This document shows, piece after piece, positions 94 through 9,454 of a DNA stretch of 34,324 bases. The notes under the pieces were generated by a model. That model saw only the letters and a list, made by a program, of their open reading frames with translations. It searched no databases and was not told the DNA's origin. The translations under genes and the position numbers were made by a program. The stretch's first letter is position 1. Every line of letters begins with the position of its first letter. Source of the stretch: Clostridia bacterium (lineage in GTDB: Bacteria; Bacillota; Clostridia; Christensenellales; Borkfalkiaceae); NCBI GenBank assembly GCA_017886895.1, contig JAGHJD010000010.1, positions 1 through 34,324 of the forward strand, in the 5' to 3' direction.

Positions 94-938
94 ACCCTTT
101 TCCCCTCGTTTGCTTTTTCCAAATGTACGATGATATTATCGATCGTTGCGTCGGACACGGTAACATTCGTTGATATTTGCATATCACGGGGCAGCAGACC
201 TTCATAGCCTTCTTTGACCGCCTTTACGCCGATGGCTTTGGCAGCCGTCGCGTCTGCAAGAGAACAAAAATGCACCAACTGGTATTTCCCGAGCAACTCT
301 TTCAGTGGGCACGCCGCAAGGAGCCTGCCCTGCGAGATATAGACGATGTCGTCGGCAATTCGCATTAGGTCGGACGTGATATGCGTGGAGAAGAGGACGG
401 AAACGCCTTCCTCCCGCACAAGCTGCAACACGATGTCGCAAAACTCTTCACGCGAAAGCGGATCAAGCCCGCTTGTCGGCTCATCCATGATGAGCAATTT
501 TGCTCCGTGCGAAAGGGCAAGAACAAGCGCAAATTTTACCTTCATGCCCTCGGAAAGCTCTTTGACCTTCTTTCGTTCGGACAAATCGAATTGCGCAAGG
601 AATTTTTCATACTTGCCCTGATTCCACGTCGGATAAAAGGGTGCGTACGCCTTGCGAATAGAAACAAGCGTGTTCATGGGATAATAGCGAAAACCGCCGC
701 CGACATAGCCGATCATCTGCTTTACCGCCATTTCATCCTCATCCATATTCTTTCCAAAGACCGAGACGGCGCCTTCTGCCGCGATAAGCCGCAGGATCCC
801 TTTGAGCGTTGTGCTTTTCCCTGCACCGTTCCTGCCAATGAGCCCGACGATATGCCCCTGCGGCACGCAAAAACTAATCTTATCAAGCGTGAATTCGAGA
901 TAGACTTTCGTCAGTCCTTTGACTTCAAGTGCATTCAT
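87..938 (-). CDS. ABC transporter ATP-binding protein (ABC-2 exporter type)
   Basis: A 283-residue ATPase expected to energise the membrane subunit encoded just downstream. Walker A GRNGAGKST is at about residues 35-43, the signature LSEGM at 128-132, Walker B LLIMDEPTSGLD from about 148, and the H-loop histidine (STH) at 186. The C-terminal 80 residues form the extra domain common in ABC-2 ATPases. An upstream in-frame start would add 13 residues. The ATG at 938 is preferred because it overlaps the stop of the AbrB-like gene (ATGA) and matches the family N-terminus. The order regulator, ATPase, permease is a common layout of small regulated exporters in Bacillota. The substrate is unknown. 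Confidence 0.93.
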   Translation of the reverse strand: MNALEVKGLTKVYLEFTLDKISFCVPQGHIVGLIGRNGAGKSTTLKGILRLIAAEGAVSVFGKNMDEDEMAVKQMIGYVGGGFRYYPMNTLVSIRKAYAPFYPTWNQGKYEKFLAQFDLSERKKVKELSEGMKVKFALVLALSHGAKLLIMDEPTSGLDPLSREEFCDIVLQLVREEGVSVLFSTHITSDLMRIADDIVYISQGRLLAACPLKELLGKYQLVHFCSLADATAAKAIGVKAVKEGYEGLLPRDMQISTNVTVSDATIDNIIVHLEKANEGKRVC

Positions 939-1156
939 TTTTGCTCGCCGTCCTTTACATGATTGACAGCCTTCCAAAACGATTCTACATAGGAAAACGG
1001 CTGCAAGGCAATACCTTGCCCTTTGTCTGCCATCAAGACCAGCGAATCTCCCGGGTTCAGCGAGAACATATCACGCACCTCTTTAGGGATGACGATCTGC
1101 CCTTTGGAACCGATCTTGACCGTTGCCAGAAACTTACCTTCGGGGAAATTTTCCAT
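935..1156 (-). CDS. AbrB/MazE/SpoVT-family DNA-binding protein
   Basis: A 73-residue protein with the swapped-hairpin AbrB fold signature near its N-terminus (VKIGSKGQIVIPKEVRDMF, then LNPGDSLVLM). Family members are dimeric transcription regulators or antitoxins. Here the gene is first in an operon with an ABC ATPase and permease, overlapping the ATPase start by four bases, so it most likely regulates the transporter. No toxin gene is adjacent. The ribosome binding site AAGGAG lies six bases before the ATG. The C-terminal 25 residues are outside the DNA-binding domain and not recognisable. Confidence 0.9.
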   Translation of the reverse strand: MENFPEGKFLATVKIGSKGQIVIPKEVRDMFSLNPGDSLVLMADKGQGIALQPFSYVESFWKAVNHVKDGEQK

Positions 1157-1207
1157 TACTTGCTCCTTTTGGTATAATTAGTATTACTTTTCCAACTATG
1201 CAGATAT

Positions 1208-1236
1208 ATTATACTTTTATTAGCAAATAAAGTTAA
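1208..1236 (-). promoter_or_regulatory. Promoter of the abrB-like/ABC operon
   Basis: On the minus strand TTAACT (1231-1236) and TATAAT (1208-1213) are separated by exactly 17 bases. The leader is about 45 bases to the ATG at 1156. The region between the two divergent genes is strongly AT-rich. Confidence 0.65.
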
Positions 1237-1275
1237 GTAATTATATCAATAATGTTTCAAAATGGTTTTGCCCTC

Positions 1276-1304
1276 TTGAAGAATACTCAAATTTATGCTA
1301 TACT
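1276..1304 (+). promoter_or_regulatory. Promoter of the SIR2/P-loop gene
   Basis: TTGAAG (1276-1281), 17 bases, then TATACT (1299-1304) preceded by TGC, an extended -10. Transcription would begin near 1311, giving a leader of about 43 bases with the Shine-Dalgarno AAAGGAGGA at 1336-1344. The promoter is strong and independent of the neighbours. Confidence 0.75.
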
Positions 1305-1353
1305 TATAACATAAGGTATTTTAGTTCAATTTTGCAAAGGAGGAGATGCTTTA

Positions 1354-3828
1354 ATGACACAAACCATCAAAGTAGTTAAGCTTGAAGAATATCTTGATGT
1401 TTTAGGACAGATGTTCAAAAATTCAATACTGATTCCCGTAATTGGATCAGGATTTTCTGCTGGAAGCTATACTTCACAAGGATGTGTTCCGAGTGGAAGT
1501 TGTATGAAAAGAGATATGATTAGAGCCTTAGAAATTGCAGGGCATAAAATTAATTCAGATAAAAAATCTTTTTCACAGGTTGCAAAATACTATAATAGAT
1601 TTATTGATGTAGGAACACGAAAAAAATATATACGCGATAATTTTATGAACACTAAATTATCGCGCGAAAAACAAGAGTTTTTAAATATTGGATGGCCCTA
1701 TTTATATACATTAAATTTAGATGATGCAATAGAAAAAAATTTAGATTGTGTAGTAATTGGTCCAAATAAAAGTCTTGAAAAAATAGATTATGATGGCTGC
1801 ATTTTATATAAATTACACGGAACAAGTACAGAATTCGCTTTTTTGAAAGATGGGGATGATTTTTCTATTTTTGACACTGAACAGTATATTAAGAGTATTA
1901 CAAAAAATACAGATTTATTAAATAAGTTAAAGCAGGATTATATTGATAAAAATATAATCTTCATTGGATGCAGTCTTGATGATGAATTAGATTTAATGCA
2001 TGTATTTAGTTTAGCCAAAGAGGAATCGCCGCATAATATTACGGAAAAATTTTTTATTACCAATATTGAGCCGACTGAAGAAAATTTAGTGGATTTAGAA
2101 TATTATGGTATAACAACGGTTTTGCTTGTTGATGATTATAATACTTTATATGATAAGCTTATTTCAATTAAAGATAGATCAAGCCTCATATTAGACAATG
2201 AATTAAATTATTTTAAAAACATCTCGATAGAACAACTTGATGTAAACAGTGACCAAAACGAAAAGTTTCTTCTCTATAACAAAATGCCATTCGATAAGAA
2301 AGATGGAATAATATATTTGCCATATTTTTTTATAAGCAGAAATTTGTCGAATGATATTATATCTCAAATCCAAAATTATCCTATTCAGTTTATTTGCGGA
2401 AAACGAATAAGTGGAAAAAGTTATTTATTGTTAGACCTTTATCGCAGATTAGCAGATAGGGACAAATATTATTTTGACTCTAGAGCTTGTATAAACGCTA
2501 AGAACATTGATACATTGATTTCTTTGCGGAATACAATAATTTTGATCGATACAAATGTCATCAATGGACCAATCTTAGAATATTTATTAAACAAAAATCT
2601 TGCTATCCTAAAAAAGAATAAAGTAAATTTTGTAATATGTGTTAATACATCTTCTAAACAGGTAGCGTTTGAGTTGCAAAATCAGAAAAATAATTCTTTT
2701 ATAAAATTACATTTTCTTGACAATAAGTTTTCTGCAAAAAAGGATAATGATGAATTTGCAATATTAAGGAAGAAACTTTCTTCATTAAATTTACCATATT
2801 TTAAAAGTAAAACTACTATATTGGATAACTTGCTATGGATGCAAAGCCGTTTATGTAAAAAAAGTCCTTCGACTGATTTGCAAAACTTTAATATTACCCC
2901 TGATAACTATATTCAGCTGGCTTATTTAATCCTATTATCATACCATGGGAAGTTGACATCAAAGGATTTGATAGGCTTTGGTGTATATCAAGAATCTAAT
3001 GAACTAATGCCAAAATTAGGAATGGCGGTAGAACCTGACTTTAGATACATGATTACCGCATCAACTTTCGATGATTCATATTATCAAGTTGTGTGTAATG
3101 CGCAAATATGGTTGTTGAGTTATCTTTCTCAGATTTCCATGAAATCAAGATATTTTGATTGTATAGTTAATGCGGTTGTATATATTGTCAAATGTTTGAA
3201 TGCTGACCATATAGATAAATTACGGCGTAGAAAATTGTTCGATTTTATTAGGTTTGATAATATTAATTTTATCTTAGGAGGAGCTCGGAAACATCCTTCC
3301 CCTTCAGGTGTGCGAAAACTAATTCAAACTATTTACACGAAATTGAAAAGTCTGCTTGGCGAAGAATATCAATTTAACCATCAGCACGCTAAATGTTTGT
3401 TATGGAGTATTGAAGAACTTCCTGCTGATGCTCGCGACGCCGATCTTTTGGAAGCTCATAAAGCAGCAATTTTATCATTACAGCTAATAGAAGAAGCTCT
3501 AGATAGCTCCCCCAAAAATCCTTATCTCAAAATTTCTTATGCCCATGTCCAATTCACAATTGGAATGATTCTTGTAAAGAAATTTTTCTTCAATAAAACA
3601 AAAGAAAATTTCACAAATGCGGTCAATCAAGTAAAATTAGCATTATCATTGCCCGAAAATCAAAATGCAGATGAACTATATGATGAACTTACAGAAGATG
3701 ATAATGACTATAGTGTCAGTAGATTTATGGATTATTTATATCAAGATGAAGCACATGACTTTTACGATTTAAAAGTACGAAGGGATATAGATTGGATTGC
3801 AACTTTTAGAAGAAACTATCTTACATAA
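1354..3828 (+). CDS. SIR2-domain and P-loop NTPase protein, candidate anti-phage NADase
   Basis: An 824-residue protein. The N-terminus (about 25-260) has SIR2-like motifs: GSGFSAG at 31-37, TLNLDD with Asn121, KLHGT with His155 and FIGCSLDDEL at 203-212. The Asn and His match the catalytic pair of bacterial defence SIR2 domains that degrade NAD+ after phage sensing. A nucleotide-binding motif GKRISGKS lies at 349-356 with a Walker B-like IILID ending at Asp399. The rest is mainly helical and could be a sensor. This order resembles SIR2-STAND (Avs5-like) proteins, but the NTPase core is weakly conserved to my eye and the subfamily is not certain. The gene is very AT-rich, unlike the GC-rich chromosome, and sits between a divergent ABC operon and a serine recombinase, which suggests transfer. 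AAAGGAGGA supports the ATG at 1354. Confidence 0.82.
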   Translation: MTQTIKVVKLEEYLDVLGQMFKNSILIPVIGSGFSAGSYTSQGCVPSGSCMKRDMIRALEIAGHKINSDKKSFSQVAKYYNRFIDVGTRKKYIRDNFMNTKLSREKQEFLNIGWPYLYTLNLDDAIEKNLDCVVIGPNKSLEKIDYDGCILYKLHGTSTEFAFLKDGDDFSIFDTEQYIKSITKNTDLLNKLKQDYIDKNIIFIGCSLDDELDLMHVFSLAKEESPHNITEKFFITNIEPTEENLVDLEYYGITTVLLVDDYNTLYDKLISIKDRSSLILDNELNYFKNISIEQLDVNSDQNEKFLLYNKMPFDKKDGIIYLPYFFISRNLSNDIISQIQNYPIQFICGKRISGKSYLLLDLYRRLADRDKYYFDSRACINAKNIDTLISLRNTIILIDTNVINGPILEYLLNKNLAILKKNKVNFVICVNTSSKQVAFELQNQKNNSFIKLHFLDNKFSAKKDNDEFAILRKKLSSLNLPYFKSKTTILDNLLWMQSRLCKKSPSTDLQNFNITPDNYIQLAYLILLSYHGKLTSKDLIGFGVYQESNELMPKLGMAVEPDFRYMITASTFDDSYYQVVCNAQIWLLSYLSQISMKSRYFDCIVNAVVYIVKCLNADHIDKLRRRKLFDFIRFDNINFILGGARKHPSPSGVRKLIQTIYTKLKSLLGEEYQFNHQHAKCLLWSIEELPADARDADLLEAHKAAILSLQLIEEALDSSPKNPYLKISYAHVQFTIGMILVKKFFFNKTKENFTNAVNQVKLALSLPENQNADELYDELTEDDNDYSVSRFMDYLYQDEAHDFYDLKVRRDIDWIATFRRNYLT

Positions 3829-3843
3829 ATTATTACCGTTCTT

Positions 3844-3881
3844 ATCAAGGGGAAAATTATCGCTGAAAATTTGTAAAGCCG
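3844..3881 (+). repeat. Direct repeat, copy 1 (terminator module upstream part)
   Basis: A 38-base segment starting 15 bases after the SIR2 gene stop. It is nearly identical to 4262-4299: both read ATCAAGGGGAAAA, then TCGCTGAAAA, then end in AAGCCG. There is one indel and a few substitutions. Both copies lead into a hairpin plus T-rich tract. Confidence 0.85.
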
Positions 3882-3904
3882 GGCAGGGAACTGCTCGGCT
3901 TTAC
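3873..3904 (+). terminator. Hairpin terminator of the SIR2 gene
   Basis: A 14-bp stem (GTAAAGCCGGGCAG against CTGCTCGGCTTTAC, one G-T pair) with a GGAA loop, followed by a pyrimidine-rich stretch. It lies between the convergent SIR2 gene and the small leftward ORF and may serve both. Confidence 0.7.
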
Positions 3905-3906
3905 TC

Positions 3907-4068
3907 TCACTCTTTGTTATCATGTTGTTTTTTGAAATATTCGCTTATCTCCAATTCCAATGCCTCTAAAAATCCAGATTCTTTATCGGCAATGATAAGC
4001 CGATGGTCTGGAACCCCGTTGATCAGAATTTTTGCATTAAAATCGTTCTTGACGTCTATCTCCTGCAT
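3907..4068 (-). CDS. Small unknown protein (53 aa) convergent to the SIR2 gene
   Basis: Not recognised. The reading frame is open further upstream, but the ATG at 4068 has a clear GGAGG six bases before it, so that start is chosen. The product begins MQEIDVKNDF and is acidic, with a probable short beta pair (AKILING, HRLIIAD) followed by a helix (FLEALELEISEYFKK). There is no membrane segment. It lies between the two copies of the direct repeat and points towards the SIR2 gene, sharing the hairpin between them. It could be an accessory or antitoxin-like partner, or an unrelated passenger of the mobile element. No function can be assigned. Confidence 0.6.
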   Translation of the reverse strand: MQEIDVKNDFNAKILINGVPDHRLIIADKESGFLEALELEISEYFKKQHDNKE

Positions 4069-4261
4069 TGTGTACCTCCGCGCTTTTCTTTGAGGGTACA
4101 ACTTTTTACAGAAGATTGTTAGATAGCCGTCCTATACAATAGTCATACTCTGTACCGAAAGAACTTAAAAAAAGAATAACCGTACTCATAATCTTCCCAA
4201 AATGTCGGGTACTTTGGTAAAGTCTTTCGATTCGCGGATGGTATCGGAAAAAGCCGTTGCC

Positions 4262-4299
4262 ATCAAGGGGAAAAATTGTCGCTGAAAACTTATAAGCCG
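4262..4299 (+). repeat. Direct repeat, copy 2
   Basis: Near-identical partner of 3844-3881 and in the same orientation. It also leads straight into a terminator-like hairpin, but with a different stem sequence. Confidence 0.85.
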
Positions 4300-4332
4300 A
4301 CCTGCTTGCGCTGGTCGGTCTTTCTTTATTTT
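4296..4332 (+). terminator. Intrinsic terminator upstream of the recombinase
   Basis: Stem GCCGACC / GGTCGGT with a ten-base loop, followed by TTTCTTTATTTT. It points rightward and would insulate the recombinase from transcription entering from the SIR2 side. Confidence 0.7.
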
Positions 4333-4468
4333 ATCAGTATGCAATAATTTTTCGGGCGCTGCCCCTGACGCCCTTGACGGCGTAGTCTTTTTCCGATTGT
4401 TTCGGGTTGTCGAAAGAAAAAATCAACACAAAAGTTTGCATACGCTTTTGGTTATTTTGGGAAGATTT

Positions 4469-4570
4469 ATGAAAATGCACGGCCAGTTGGGAAACCTTAT
4501 GGGCTGGCTTGCTAACATTCCCAATCAAAAAAGGATAGCATGTGAACTACAAATCCGAACACAGAGGTAA
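4469..4570 (+). CDS. Possible 33-residue leader ORF before the recombinase
   Basis: ATG at 4469 to TAA at 4568-4570, encoding a 33-residue peptide beginning MKMHGQLGNLMGWLANIPNQ. It ends six bases before the recombinase ATG, and the AGAGG site of the recombinase overlaps its last codons, so the two could be translationally coupled. A weak GGGAAGA lies before the ATG. The right arm of the inverted repeat overlaps the start. It may be non-coding. Confidence 0.3.
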   Translation: MKMHGQLGNLMGWLANIPNQKRIACELQIRTQR

Positions 4571-4576
4571 AAGACA

Positions 4577-6118
4577 ATGAAAGGTGCAGTTATCTACGCA
4601 CGTTACAGCAGTGAAAAACAAAACGAGCAGTCCATCGAAGGACAGCTCCGAATCTGCAATCAATATGCGGAGGCGAACGGCTTGACGATTGTGGATACCT
4701 ATATCGACAGAGCCATGACAGGCACGAACGACCATCGCCCTGCCTTTCAGCAGATGCTTGCCGATTGCGAAAAAGTCGTGCCGTGGGATATCGTACTTGT
4801 GTATGCCATCGACCGTTTTGGACGGAACTCCATCGAAATCGCCGTCAACAAACAACGATTGAAAAAACATAAAAAGACGCTGATTTCAGCCACGCAGCGC
4901 ACGTCTGAAAATATCGACGGAACAAAGAACCTCGACGGTATTCTTTTGGAGAATGTCTATATCGGGCTTGCCGAATATTACTCGGCAGAACTTTCGCAAA
5001 AGGTGAAACGCGGTATGTACGAAACTCTGAAAAAAGGCTTATACCCCGGCGGCGTTGTGCCGTTCGGCTATCGTGTGGAGAACAAGCGCGTCTATATCAA
5101 CGAAGAAGAAGCAGAAATTGTGCGTTCCATTTTTCAACAGTATGCACAAGGCGTTCTTGGCAGAGAGCTGATTGCGCAGCTGCAAGAAAAAGGCATCACC
5201 AATCACGGCAGACCGTTCGCTTTGAATACGCTCTACAATATGCTCCGTATGAAAAAGTATATCGGCATTTTTGAATATGGCGACGAAGTCTGCACAAATA
5301 TCTTTCCGCCTATCGTGCCGGAAGCCCTGTTTGAAGAGGTGGGCAGCATCTTACTGAAAAACAAACACGGCGGAACAAGCCGCGAAGTTGAGTTCCTTTT
5401 AAAAGGCAAACTAATATGCGGTTATTGCGGCTACCATTTGCAGGGCGATAGCGGTACGTCAAAATCAGGCAGACGGATTTATTATTATAAGTGCATGGGC
5501 AGAAAGAAAAAGAATATCTGCCATAAGGAAATCATGCCGAAAGAAAAACTTGAACAGGCTGTCATCGATGCAACGATGCAGGTATTTGGTACTCCCGAAG
5601 GCATCTCCGCGATTGCCGACGAGATTTTGAAAATCCATGCAAAGCGGATGAATGATAAATCGCTCCTTGCCATTCTGAATAATGAACGCGATGAAATCAA
5701 ACGCGCGCTTGCCAACATTATGAAAGCTGTCGAACAGGGAATTTTCAATGCCACAACCAAAAACCGCATGGATGAGCTGGAAGCGCAGCTTACCGGGGTT
5801 GAAGATAAAATCACGATTGAGCAGTACAAGACGCAAAACCAATTAAAGAAAGAGCAGGTCGTCGAATACCTGACGCACACGATACGGCAATCGCCTCGGC
5901 TGCTCATCAAAAACCTGATACAAAAAATTGTGGTGTATGACGACCGGTTTGAGATTTACTACAACTACCTCAATAGGATGCCGCCTAAAACGGACGAGCC
6001 AGGCAATAAGTCCGCTATCACAGCACCGCCAAATGCGTGTTCGGACATCTCAAAAGACAGTTCACCAAAACGAGGCGGGAAGTACATCTTCCCGCCTCGT
6101 TTTGGTAATGGCAGCTGA
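4577..6118 (+). CDS. Large serine recombinase (site-specific integrase/transposase)
   Basis: A 513-residue recombinase. The catalytic domain begins YARYSSEKQ, with Ser11 as the expected nucleophile, and continues with conserved resolvase motifs (SIEGQ, LVYAIDRFGRN). The recombinase domain follows (YPGGVVPFGYRV onward). A zinc ribbon is visible as CGYCGYH and YYKCMGRKKKNIC, then a coiled-coil region near 365-430. These are the parts of large serine recombinases that move integrative elements. The normal C-terminus probably ends near FEIYYNYLNR; the last 35 or so residues are low in family character. The final residues (KRGGKYIFPPRFGNGS) are encoded by a perfect palindrome that is repeated twice downstream. 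Its GC content is between those of the SIR2 gene and the chromosome. It is the likely agent that brought the left-end islet. No att core could be defined. Confidence 0.93.
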   Translation: MKGAVIYARYSSEKQNEQSIEGQLRICNQYAEANGLTIVDTYIDRAMTGTNDHRPAFQQMLADCEKVVPWDIVLVYAIDRFGRNSIEIAVNKQRLKKHKKTLISATQRTSENIDGTKNLDGILLENVYIGLAEYYSAELSQKVKRGMYETLKKGLYPGGVVPFGYRVENKRVYINEEEAEIVRSIFQQYAQGVLGRELIAQLQEKGITNHGRPFALNTLYNMLRMKKYIGIFEYGDEVCTNIFPPIVPEALFEEVGSILLKNKHGGTSREVEFLLKGKLICGYCGYHLQGDSGTSKSGRRIYYYKCMGRKKKNICHKEIMPKEKLEQAVIDATMQVFGTPEGISAIADEILKIHAKRMNDKSLLAILNNERDEIKRALANIMKAVEQGIFNATTKNRMDELEAQLTGVEDKITIEQYKTQNQLKKEQVVEYLTHTIRQSPRLLIKNLIQKIVVYDDRFEIYYNYLNRMPPKTDEPGNKSAITAPPNACSDISKDSSPKRGGKYIFPPRFGNGS

Positions 6119-6196
6119 CCCGAACAGGCCGCGCGAAGCGCGGGCTGGGCGTGCTCGAAGAGCTTTGCCGCGCAGCGGCAAGCCCCCGGTGGGGGC
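6064..6196 (+). repeat. Palindromic repeat unit 1 (6-kb family)
   Basis: It starts with a perfect 19-bp palindrome (6064-6082 against 6088-6106, loop TACAT), which can act as terminator for the recombinase and also encodes its last residues. It continues with a hairpin GCCGCGC-GAA-GCGCGGGC, then GCTTTGC-CGC-GCA-GCG-GCAAGC (6162-6183) and CCCCCGGTGGGGG. Units 2 and 3 share the same series of parts. Confidence 0.9.
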
Positions 6197-6224
6197 GATC
6201 GCTGCCGCTTCGGCTGTACTTTTT

Positions 6225-6426
6225 CGTGCGGGAAGTACATCTTCCCGCCTCGTTTTGGGTGTTACAACTGACCCAGGCAGGCCGCGCTATGCGCGGGCTG
6301 TGACGCGATCGGCTTGTTGCTTTCTTTTCTGATTTACATATGCCGGCATCGATCGCTATTCCGTCGCTGGCGCTCCTTACGTGCTCGAAGAGCTTTGCCG
6401 CGCAGCGGCAAGCTCCCGGCGGGGGC
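6225..6426 (+). repeat. Palindromic repeat unit 2, interrupted
   Basis: The same series of hairpins as unit 1, with the first palindrome shortened on its left arm. Between the second hairpin (ending 6300) and the GTGCTCGAAG segment (from 6381) it carries about 80 extra bases that are absent from units 1 and 3. The conserved bulged hairpin is at 6392-6413. Confidence 0.88.
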
Positions 6427-6463
6427 AAACATAATCGTGTTCGGTGTGCCTTTTCCACTGTTC

Positions 6464-6589
6464 CGTGCGGGAAGTACATCTTCCCGCCTCGTTTTGGGTG
6501 TTAGCAGCTGACCTAGGCAGGCCGCGCTATGCGCGGGCTGGGCGTGCTCGAAGAGCTTTGCCGCGCAGCGGCAAGCCCCCGGTGGGGGC
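6464..6589 (+). repeat. Palindromic repeat unit 3
   Basis: An uninterrupted copy, nearly identical to unit 2 outside its insertion (same GTGCGGGAAG start, same GCCGCGC-TAT-GCGCGGGC hairpin) and to unit 1 over its second half. The bulged hairpin is at 6555-6576. Confidence 0.9.
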
Positions 6590-6636
6590 ACCCATGAACT
6601 TTTTCACTTCTGTTGCGCATAAACGCTTCCATCTAC

Positions 6637-6670
6637 AAAAAGGCGTAGCCGAACACGGCTGTGCCTTTTT
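6637..6670 (+). terminator. Intrinsic terminator before the ilv promoter
   Basis: Stem AAAAAGGC...AGCCG against CGGCT...GCCTTTTT with two wobble pairs and an AACA loop, ending in five Ts. It separates the repeat region and recombinase from the ilv operon. Confidence 0.75.
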
Positions 6671-6770
6671 ATACCTCTTCCCAGTGTGGCGGGACCCTCT
6701 CCCGCACGGAAAGCGGGGGCAGCTCTTTCCCCTCTCCCACGCTCTTGCGGCGACGCGCTCACGGAAACGC

Positions 6771-6799
6771 TTGACACGGCGCGGATTTTGGAATACAAT
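6771..6799 (+). promoter_or_regulatory. Promoter of the ilvBN operon
   Basis: TTGACA (6771-6776), 17 bases, TACAAT (6794-6799). The leader is about 60 bases. I see no T-box consensus and no convincing leader peptide in it. Confidence 0.8.
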
Positions 6800-6864
6800 A
6801 TTGAAACTTACTATCATTATTACAAACGCGCGGGGCGGGTCGCCCTGCCTGAAAGGAGAAAGCT

Positions 6865-8520
6865 ATGAAACTGACCGGAGCAGAGATCCTCATCCGCTGT
6901 CTGAAAGAACAGGGCGTGGATACCATTTTCGGATACCCCGGCGGCACGGTGCTGGATATCTACGACGCGCTGTACCGCGACGGAACGCTCCGCCATGTAC
7001 TGACGGCGCACGAACAGGGCGCAGCGCACGCGGCGGACGGGTATGCGCGCGCGACGGGCAAGACAGGCGTATGCCTTGCAACTTCCGGCCCTGGCGCGAC
7101 CAACCTCGTTACGGGCATCGCGACGGCGTACATGGACTCCGTTCCGCTCGTCGCCATCACGGGCAACGTGACGGTCGCCAACCTCGGGCGCGACAGCTTC
7201 CAGGAAGTGGACATCGCAGGTATCACGATGCCCATCACAAAGCACAACTACATCGTCAAGGACGTGAAAGAGCTTGCGGACACCATCCGCGAAGCGTTCT
7301 ATATCGCGGGTTCGGGGCGCAAGGGACCCGTTCTCATCGACATCCCCAAAAACCTGCAGACCGAGCTGTGCGAGTATGAAGAGAAGGCGCCCGCCGCCTA
7401 TGTGCCCAAGGGCGTTTCCGCAGACAAGCTGACCGAGGTCGCGCAGGCGATCGCAAAGTCCAGGCGCCCCCTCATCATCGCGGGCGGCGGCTGCATCCGC
7501 GCGGACGCTTCGGCGAACCTTCTGGCATTTGCGAAAAAGATCCAGGCGCCCGTGTGCTCCACGCTGATGGGGCTGGGCAGCTACCCCGCCTCCGACGAAC
7601 AGTTTTTGGGGCTGGTCGGCATGCACGGCACGGACGCGGCGGCGAAATCGTTCCGCCGTGCGGACACGATCATCGCGTGCGGTATGCGCTTTTCCGACCG
7701 CGTGGCGGGCGACCGCGTAAAATTCCGCGCGGGCAAGACGATCATTCAGTTCGACATCGACACCGCCGAGATCGACAAGAACGTGCCCACCGACCTCTCG
7801 GTCATGGCGGACGTAAACGAAATTTTAAAGACGCTCGTTCCCCTCTTAGAACAGGCGGACCGCAAAGAGTGGCTCAAAGAAGTGACCGCCTACCGCGATT
7901 ACGAAGCGGGCAACTTCGACAGCACCCTGCCCGCCTATAAGATCCTCTCCGCGCTCGGAAAATTCACCGACGCGGACACGCCCGTCGCGACGGACGTGGG
8001 GCAGCACCAGATGTGGACGGCGCAGTACTGCAAGTTCGAAAAGCCGCGCACCTTCCTTTCGAGCGGCGGGCTGGGCACGATGGGCTACGGCATGGGCGCG
8101 GCGATCGGCGCGTGCATCGGCACGGGCAGGAAGACGGTGCTCGTGACGGGCGACGGGTGTTTCCACATGAACCTGAACGAGATGAGCACCGCCGTCAAAG
8201 AAGGGCTGCCTCTCGTGATCCTGCTGATGAACAACAGCGTGCTCGGCATGGTGCGGCAGTGGCAGACGCTCTTCTACGGCAAGCGCTATTCGCAGACCAT
8301 GCTCGACAAGAACACCGACTTTGTGAAACTTGCCGAAGCGTTCGGCGCAAAGGGCATGACCATCGCGGGCGAAAAGGACGTCCTGCCCGTGCTGACCGCG
8401 GCGTTTAAAGAAGCGGACAACGGCCCCGTGCTGGTGGACTGCAAGATCGGCATGGACGACAAGGTGCTGCCCATGATCGCACCGGGCAAGTCGTTCGACG
8501 ACATCATGACAAAAGTCTGA
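6865..8520 (+). CDS. ilvB: Acetolactate synthase, large (catalytic) subunit
   Basis: A 551-residue thiamine-diphosphate enzyme joining two pyruvates to acetolactate, or pyruvate and 2-oxobutyrate to acetohydroxybutyrate, the first common step to valine, leucine and isoleucine. The catalytic glutamate is Glu50 in AHEQGAAHAADGYA. The diphosphate motif begins GDG at 429-431 and reaches the Asn pair at 456-457. The FAD/middle domain and the QVDIAG-like segment (QEVDIAG) are present. Length and order of domains are standard. The start has AAGGAGAAAG before the ATG. It is first in an operon with ilvN 14 bases downstream, under a strong promoter. Confidence 0.97.
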   Translation: MKLTGAEILIRCLKEQGVDTIFGYPGGTVLDIYDALYRDGTLRHVLTAHEQGAAHAADGYARATGKTGVCLATSGPGATNLVTGIATAYMDSVPLVAITGNVTVANLGRDSFQEVDIAGITMPITKHNYIVKDVKELADTIREAFYIAGSGRKGPVLIDIPKNLQTELCEYEEKAPAAYVPKGVSADKLTEVAQAIAKSRRPLIIAGGGCIRADASANLLAFAKKIQAPVCSTLMGLGSYPASDEQFLGLVGMHGTDAAAKSFRRADTIIACGMRFSDRVAGDRVKFRAGKTIIQFDIDTAEIDKNVPTDLSVMADVNEILKTLVPLLEQADRKEWLKEVTAYRDYEAGNFDSTLPAYKILSALGKFTDADTPVATDVGQHQMWTAQYCKFEKPRTFLSSGGLGTMGYGMGAAIGACIGTGRKTVLVTGDGCFHMNLNEMSTAVKEGLPLVILLMNNSVLGMVRQWQTLFYGKRYSQTMLDKNTDFVKLAEAFGAKGMTIAGEKDVLPVLTAAFKEADNGPVLVDCKIGMDDKVLPMIAPGKSFDDIMTKV

Positions 8521-8534
8521 GAGGAGCGGAAACC

Positions 8535-9053
8535 ATGGAAAAATATACGATCACGGCGCTGGTCGCCAACAAGAGCGGCGTGCTCACCCGCGTTTCGGGG
8601 CTGTTCGCGCGCCGCGGGTTCAACATCGAAAGCCTTTGCGTGTGCGCGACGGAGGACAAACACCTTTCGCGCATGACCATCGTGCTGGGCGGCGACGAAT
8701 ACATCCTTTCGCAGATGACGAAACAGCTCGACAAGCTCATCGACGTGAAGAAGATCGCCCTGGCGGAGGAAGCGGACTCCATTTACCGCGAACTGCTGCT
8801 CATGAAGGTCTCCGCGCCCGCCGAAAAGCGCTCGGAGATCATCGAGATCAAGGAAATTTACAAGGCGAAGATCGTCGACCTCTCCCCCGAAACGCTCATT
8901 CTGGAAATCACGGGCGAGCCGAGCAAGCTGGACGCGTTCGTCAAGGTCGTCGAACCGTACGGCATCCTGGAGCTTGCGCGCACGGGCACGATCGCCCTGG
9001 CGCGCGGCGAAAAATGCCTGAACGACCTCGTGGATTACAACGAATCCATCTGA
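8535..9053 (+). CDS. ilvN: Acetolactate synthase, small (regulatory) subunit
   Basis: A 172-residue regulatory subunit. The N-terminal ACT domain (about 1-75; KSGVLTRVSGLFARRGFNIESL, split here at residues of the first and second helices) binds valine in relatives and confers feedback inhibition. The C-terminal half (about 80-160) is the typical IlvN domain that activates the large subunit. AGGAGCGG precedes the ATG. The short gap after ilvB indicates cotranscription and 1:1 supply of the complex. Confidence 0.96.
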   Translation: MEKYTITALVANKSGVLTRVSGLFARRGFNIESLCVCATEDKHLSRMTIVLGGDEYILSQMTKQLDKLIDVKKIALAEEADSIYRELLLMKVSAPAEKRSEIIEIKEIYKAKIVDLSPETLILEITGEPSKLDAFVKVVEPYGILELARTGTIALARGEKCLNDLVDYNESI

Positions 9054-9055
9054 TC

Positions 9056-9454
9056 ATGCTTACCCTGCGCAAAACAAATGCCGCCGACGCGGAATTCTGG
9101 CAGCGTTTGGGCAAAATACTGCCCCGAAGCGGCGAAGCCTTTGTGATCGAGGACGGCGGGAAACAGGTCGGCGTCCTGCACTATACCCTGCTGTGGGAAG
9201 AACTCCCCTTTCTGAACCTGCTCCTGCTCTGCGGGGATATGCAGGGAAAAGGATACGGGAAAAGCGCGCTCGCGGCATGGGAAACCATGCTCCGCGCCGC
9301 GGGGCACAAAACAGCGCTGCTTTCAACACGCGCGGACGAAAAGGGGCGAACCTTTTTCGGGCGGTACGGCTATACCGAATGCGGTTCGCTGAACATGCGC
9401 GGCTTTGCCGCCCCGCAGGAAGCGGCGGAATTGTTCTTTTATAAAAATCTGTAA
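9056..9454 (+). CDS. GNAT-family N-acetyltransferase
   Basis: A 132-residue acetyltransferase whose ATG lies two bases after the ilvN stop, so it is likely translated by coupling. The acetyl-CoA loop is visible as GDMQGKGYGKSAL around residues 60-72, and the C-terminal half has the RTFFGRYGYTECG pattern of the GNAT fold. Its substrate is unknown. A role in branched-chain amino acid synthesis would be an inference from position only. Codon use and GC content match the neighbours, so it is not obviously a recent arrival. Confidence 0.85.
   Translation: MLTLRKTNAADAEFWQRLGKILPRSGEAFVIEDGGKQVGVLHYTLLWEELPFLNLLLLCGDMQGKGYGKSALAAWETMLRAAGHKTALLSTRADEKGRTFFGRYGYTECGSLNMRGFAAPQEAAELFFYKNL

Follow-up and report, generated by a model that had tools for sequence, protein, structure and literature searches.

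Avs5 (AVAST type 5) proteins, represented among solved structures by 9nah and 9nc9, combine a SIR2 domain, a P-loop NTPase and a helical C-terminus in one gene. Those studied in PMC12931631 protect against phages, and in one of them, PaAvs5-1, the substitutions N110A, D112A and E202A and changes in Walker A each abolish protection, as does replacement of Glu410 of the Walker-B-like motif by Ala (PMC12931631); NAD+ in the PaAvs5-1 system fell threefold by 10 min and had recovered by 15 min (PMC12931631). Activity is reported to require filament assembly (PMC12700824). Here we describe an Avs5-like gene in 34,324 nucleotides of DNA from a Clostridia bacterium (GenBank assembly GCA_017886895.1, contig JAGHJD010000010.1, positions 1 to 34,324), the whole of which is called the window below. 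Its product is very probably a divergent Avs5, a predicted phage-sensing NADase encoded by a single gene, and it adds a divergent member to known Avs5 rather than a new system.

Assignment to the Avs5 family

The gene, at 1354-3828 on the forward strand, was first picked out by a sequence-only reading of the window as a candidate anti-phage NADase. It is an intact open reading frame (ORF) of 824 aa with an ATG start, and with a maximum stop-free run of 149 codons across 300 same-base shuffles, the frame is real. In PADLOC, Avs5 was the best match (173 bits, 1.8e-51, residues 18-687) and ThsA, at 5.2e-6, the only other, and the NCBIfam Avs5 model NF041814 scored 220 bits (3.7e-65). A phmmer search of the Protein Data Bank (PDB) returned 9nah_A at E=5.8e-37; this sequence is common to entry 9nc9, titled “Helical assembly of AVAST5 filament” in the fold searches. 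Profile A1, made from the window protein, the metagenomic homologue L003 and the Enterococcus faecalis plasmid protein L004 and containing no close relative of 9nah, aligned with 9nah at 1.5e-62 over positions 17-705, and with the Avs5 protein of the prophage contig L007 by hhalign at probability 100 (639 columns, 26% identity). Another profile, A3, matched 9nah at 1.2e-250; the closeness of L007 to 9nah inflates this score, which was not used.

Fold comparison led to the same family. A model of the SIR2 domain, of moderate confidence, had the SIR2 fold and placed 9nc9 at the top in Foldseek as well as by Z (12.6), and this fold alone also matches DSR2; the full-length model likewise found 9nc9 first by Foldseek (4.9e-14, TM 0.25-0.27), a result given little weight. 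Homology runs along residues ~18-705, and the catalytic and nucleotide-binding residues are kept. The profile searches and structure comparison proposed with the sequence-only reading have thus been carried out, and its idea of a SIR2-STAND NADase from one gene agrees with the profile, solved-structure and fold comparisons, all of which rank Avs5 first. Avs5, which it had cited as an analogue, is named by the family searches as the relative itself, and the accompanying argument for a new subtype fails (see below).

Pfam SIR2_2 matches residues 117-254 (E=3.2e-12), and the N-terminal GxGxS-like, NxD and HG or NG motifs of SIR2 proteins are present, as are the Walker A and Walker-B-like motifs of a P-loop NTPase in a region that aligns to 9nah. 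Six rows were aligned (the window protein, L003, L004, L005, L007 and L010), of which the Vibrio row is without an N-terminus. H155, K355 and D399 are identical in all six, and N121 is kept in 5/6, that is, in every row with a letter there; N121, H155, GKRISGKS (349-356) and D399 lie where they had been claimed. A Walker A pattern turned up in 21 of 2000 shuffled versions of the protein, so that motif alone is weak evidence; homology along most of the protein does not share this weakness. The long helical C-terminus seen earlier is borne out by helix prediction, with block pLDDT of 75-92 across residues 651-770 and lower values past 770. Avs5 Tyr661, Trp675 and Gln677, which precede the helical repeat sensor, are reported to be conserved or invariant (PMC12931631), and Tyr661 and Gln677 are kept in 6/6 rows. 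By motif matching alone, N121, D123, E211, K355, D399, Tyr661 and Gln677 seem to correspond to the PaAvs5 residues.

Several observations weigh against this assignment. The curated cut-off of NF041814, 1000 bits, is not reached by the window protein, nor by L003 (250), L004 (234) or the N-terminally incomplete L005 (138), whereas L007 (1135 bits) and L010, from a viral contig (1057 bits), pass it; with the PADLOC model the latter two score 1430 and 1165 bits. A score so far below the cut-off marks a distant Avs5 member: by these bit scores the strict NCBIfam Avs5 equivalog label does not apply, and the wider Avs5 family label does. That wider family is diverse in itself, tested members of three clades being 18-21% identical to one another (PMC12931631). 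Pfam nSTAND3, reported for PaAvs5 proteins (PMC12931631), matched neither the window protein nor any of L003, L004 and L005 at E up to 1; its match to L007 (1.3e-05, 25.4 bits) is under the model's cut-off of 27.2; the Pfam matches in the NTPase part of the window protein, ATPase_2 (0.0053) and AAA_14 (0.21), are both below cut-off. Asn675 stands in place of the Trp found in L007 and L010, and this exchange, with the missing nSTAND3 match, also sets the protein apart from PaAvs5 and EfAvs5 as described in PMC12931631 (PDB 9jap); EfAvs5 was absent from the PDB phmmer matches at E up to 1. The sequence match to 9nah and L007 does not continue past about residue 703-705, and the full-length model, at pLDDT 49.4, is poor. 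Finally, PaAvs5-1 with Glu410 changed to Gln keeps protection (PMC12931631), so that ATP hydrolysis may not be needed.

Table 1. Features of the Avs5-like locus, in window positions
Feature	Positions	Strand	Evidence
Avs5-like gene, SIR2 - STAND NTPase - helical C-terminus, 824 aa	1354..3828	+	PADLOC, NCBIfam, PDB phmmer
SIR2 domain, residues ~20-280 (N121, D123, H155-G156, E211)	1411..2193	+	
NLD, codons 121-123, NxD of the SIR2 active site	1714..1722	+	alignment
HG motif, codons H155-G156	1816..1821	+	alignment
Walker A GKRISGKS, residues 349-356	2398..2421	+	G349, G354, K355 in 6/6 rows
Walker-B-like IILID, residues 395-399, single acidic residue D399	2536..2550	+	D399 in 6/6 rows
C-terminal helical region, residues 691-824, presumed sensor, least conserved	3424..3825	+	alignment identities, helix prediction
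Ribosome-binding site AAGGAGGAG, ATG 8 nt downstream	1337..1345	+	direct sequence reading
Promoter-like site TTGAAG-17-TATACT, TG precedes -10	1276..1304	+	not above chance
Upstream same-strand ORF, antisense over AbrB gene	929-1177	+	ORF listing
Upstream same-strand ORF, antisense over AbrB gene	1023-1181	+	ORF listing
Upstream same-strand ORF, 35 aa	1123-1230	+	ORF listing
Upstream same-strand ORF, 20 aa	1252-1314	+	ORF listing
Large serine recombinase, 513 aa, probable island mobility gene	4577..6118	+	Pfam, PHROG
Variable segment, genus-conserved AbrB/ABC-transporter pair to ilvB	1193..6755	.	blastn breakpoints, GC

Divergence of the parts and a proposed mechanism

The sequence-only reading had suggested a new subtype on the ground of a small and diverged NTPase part. 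The interval from the P-loop to the conserved QxAK motif is 328 residues in the window protein (329 in L003, 333 in L004), compared with 295 in L007 and 296 in L010, the two that pass the NCBIfam cut-off, and 303 in L005. The NTPase region is therefore not small, and a new subtype on that basis is rejected. As for divergence, the claim holds in that the NTPase is 25% identical to that of L007 (42/169), and misplaces the emphasis in that the C-terminal sensor is far more diverged (14/104, 13%); the remaining identities to L007 are 79/250 in SIR2, 6/38 in the linker and 36/164 in residues 501-690. Against L007, L010 and the Vibrio row, sensor identity is 8-13%, compared with 30-32% in SIR2, and on these alignments the greatest divergence is in the predicted sensor.

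Measured against 9nah/9nc9 and L007, the window protein has the same three parts, the same catalytic and Walker residues and homology over residues ~17-705, with an identity to L007 of 23-26% depending on alignment. It differs in length, at 824 aa versus 769-770 aa, and in its longer P-loop-to-QxAK interval. It carries HG where PaAvs5-1 has NG, and the two forms are reported in roughly equal numbers across Avs5 homologues (PMC12931631).

In the model proposed here, the N-terminal SIR2 domain would be a NAD+ hydrolase kept inactive until a phage is sensed. The C-terminal helical region would bind a phage protein, the central STAND-type NTPase would bind nucleotide and change state, and the protein would then assemble, as other Avs5 proteins do into filaments; assembly would switch on the SIR2 sites, and the ensuing drop in NAD+ would abort the infection. 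We infer NAD+ hydrolysis, assembly, phage sensing and protection from the Avs5 proteins studied elsewhere.

Whether the sensor answers to a different trigger is a related question. It is possible, though we hold it only tentatively, that Avs5 has a separate lineage made up of the window protein and L003, with the Enterococcus plasmid protein attached more loosely; the sensor of this lineage would be distinct and would answer to something other than JADA, the activator from jumbo phages known for PaAvs5 (PMC12931631). In the six-row tree the window protein and L003 pair with support 100/100, the one grouping used from a tree that has an open fork and a long, incomplete Vibrio row. JADA is reported to activate members of three clades although they are little alike (PMC12931631), which speaks against a different trigger; in the same study two Avs5 homologues also stop an RNA phage and one a siphophage (PMC12931631), which leaves room for it.

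Relatives and genomic setting

The closest relative is L003, metagenomic and intact, which is 59% identical over residues 1-823 and was the one relative returned by a genome-contig scan that is built on six short peptides from a single protein and detects close relatives only. In L003 a 65-aa ORF (14-211), just inside the start of the contig, ends 3 nt before the Avs5-like start; it has one sub-threshold Pfam match (PhiKZ_gp85, 0.018) and none in NCBIfam, and no counterpart was seen among the listed window ORFs, with no alignment search made. No ORF of at least 30 aa lies directly upstream of the Avs5-like gene in the Enterococcus locus. A two-gene system was rejected in the window itself: same-strand ORFs of at least 20 aa ending within 200 nt upstream of the ATG number four, two of them antisense over the AbrB gene (Table 1).

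Beyond L003 the gene is rare. With the window protein as query, 2/201 genomes of the family sample matched at E up to 0.001, the second match (L002, G113:C12:9919-10140) being 83 residues against residues 300-382 with two internal stops, perhaps a remnant or a chance match. At E up to 1e-20, 1/396 genomes of the order and 1/398 of the phylum matched, and with the NCBI Avs5 model 1/21 relatives at 1e-5 and 1/391 class genomes at 1e-10, each time only the source genome itself, in overlapping samples and at strict limits that would miss distant relatives; 14 control genomes had no match to the model in either scan. Three of 72,556 plasmid records matched. The Enterococcus faecalis plasmid protein (LR962349, L004 5992-8556; 30% identity over 89% of the query) is, like the window protein, Avs5-like and under the NCBI cut-off, and it differs in host and context, with a C-terminus 23% identical. 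About 1 kb from that gene, 9541-11376 matches PADLOC PDC-S49, a candidate defence protein (3.2e-42). A phage-borne gene was discounted: the phage collection gave 0/50,697 matches and a viral-contig scan with the window protein none. Viral-contig scans with A1 returned one locus and with A3 two, one of them on A1's contig; the L007 protein found L007 only, and the L007 gene had no DNA match in E. coli genomes. We found no on-topic report of Avs5 in Bacillota, Enterococcus or Clostridia in the open-access literature searched.

The gene lies in a variable segment whose edges were placed by blastn with eleven left-flank and eleven right-flank loci, those returned from 40 genomes of the genus, the source genome among them, of which 19 and 39, respectively, had any match. 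The left breakpoint falls at 1192-1237 in 10/11 relatives and at 1017, at a contig end, in one. Right homology starts at 6834-6874 in 9/11 and at 6756 and 6764 in two, and the source genome's other ilvB copy extends it back to 6764, so that the right edge is uncertain, from 6756 to 6853 by relative. Composition changes along the segment: 25.5% GC at 1193-1353, 29.7% in the Avs5-like gene, 40.6% at 3829-4576, 46.8% in the recombinase and 60.5% at 6119-6852, with flanks at 48.6% and 60.7%. The AT-rich character noted earlier is thus confirmed against a window value of 56.8%, and so is the neighbouring recombinase, which matches Pfam Resolvase (1.3e-28), Recombinase (1.9e-14) and Zn_ribbon_recom (4.9e-12) and a PHROG integrase (1.1e-106). 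An extended -10 promoter had also been proposed. The site exists, but 17 promoter-like sites were observed in 1100-4700 against 19.3 expected from shuffles, which leaves it without statistical weight.

Both flanks occurred together in one of ten stretches examined, L038 (G201). There, within 1450-9372, the AbrB/ABC pair is followed by ORFs that we read from their sequence as relaxase-like and tilS-like, two serine recombinases and an ilvB-like gene. In L035 (G028) a recombinase C-terminal piece (6043-6342, 58% identical) lies ~1.4 kb from the AbrB/ABC pair, whose neighbourhood is perhaps a recurrent insertion site. No empty site for the segment was seen in the blastn-compared loci. A variable, recombinase-prone slot fits horizontal acquisition, and by its composition the AT-rich Avs5-like stretch looks acquired.

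Other features of the locus may be recorded here. The gene at 935-1156 (-) encodes an AbrB/MazE-type DNA-binding protein (Pfam MazE_antitoxin, 9.8e-12) and overlaps the start of the ABC-transporter gene; because the two are conserved together in relatives, it is part of the flank and not of the Avs5-like gene. Between the Avs5-like gene and the recombinase, a 54-aa ORF at 3910-4071 (-) has one sub-threshold NCBIfam match and none in Pfam. Two interleaved GC-rich repeats of 73-76 nt, three copies each, occupy 6064-6618, where the recombinase ORF ends; a perfect 19-nt inverted repeat lies at 6064-6106, and the repeat core CTTCCCGCCTCGTTTTGG occurs four times in the genome, all inside 6064-6618. 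The ilvB-like gene at 6865-8520 has a second copy (G000:C21:1562-3217) with 92% DNA identity on a 3.9-kb contig, either a paralogue or a sign of strain mixture in the bin.

Alternative explanations and significance

Defence genes are often carried on mobile islands. The setting described above therefore does not discriminate between phage defence and a second role, in which a SIR2-STAND protein of the same descent would serve the exclusion of other mobile elements or the upkeep of the island. The adjoining serine recombinase, the other mobile-element genes in the same slot of a relative, the homologue on Enterococcus faecalis plasmids and a sensor unlike those of L007 and L010 would all suit such a role; phage protection is what PMC12931631 reports for the Avs5 proteins that it studied, and we regard the island role as unlikely.

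Membership of another SIR2 defence family is less probable still. ThsA of Thoeris joins SIR2 to a C-terminal SLOG-type domain and has a TIR partner gene, ThsB. ThsA and DSR2 have the SIR2_2-type NADase fold in common with the window protein, whose remainder has no sequence match to them in PADLOC or the PDB phmmer search: the ThsA profile is matched at 59-267 of its 478 positions only, within SIR2, whereas the Avs5 match extends through the P-loop domain to residue 687-705. No SLOG-type Pfam match was found in the protein at E up to 1 and no TIR domain by Pfam in the four flanking ORFs scanned. Avs5 leads the PADLOC, NCBIfam, PDB phmmer, profile A1 and SIR2-domain fold searches, and no DSR model was among the PADLOC matches at E up to 1, in a library whose DSR content was not checked. 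That the gene is inactive island cargo, as its rarity among relatives and foreign composition might suggest, is equally improbable, given that the frame is intact, the ribosome-binding site is good and the catalytic residues are kept, and that a full-length intact homologue exists at 59% identity.

A divergent Avs5 thus remains the preferred reading. The gene adds no new mechanism and extends the sampled range of Avs5. Together with L003 it provides a pair of intact homologues that resemble known Avs5 in SIR2 and NTPase and have hardly any sensor sequence in common with L007 and L010, so that the pairing of sensors with triggers can be put to the test.
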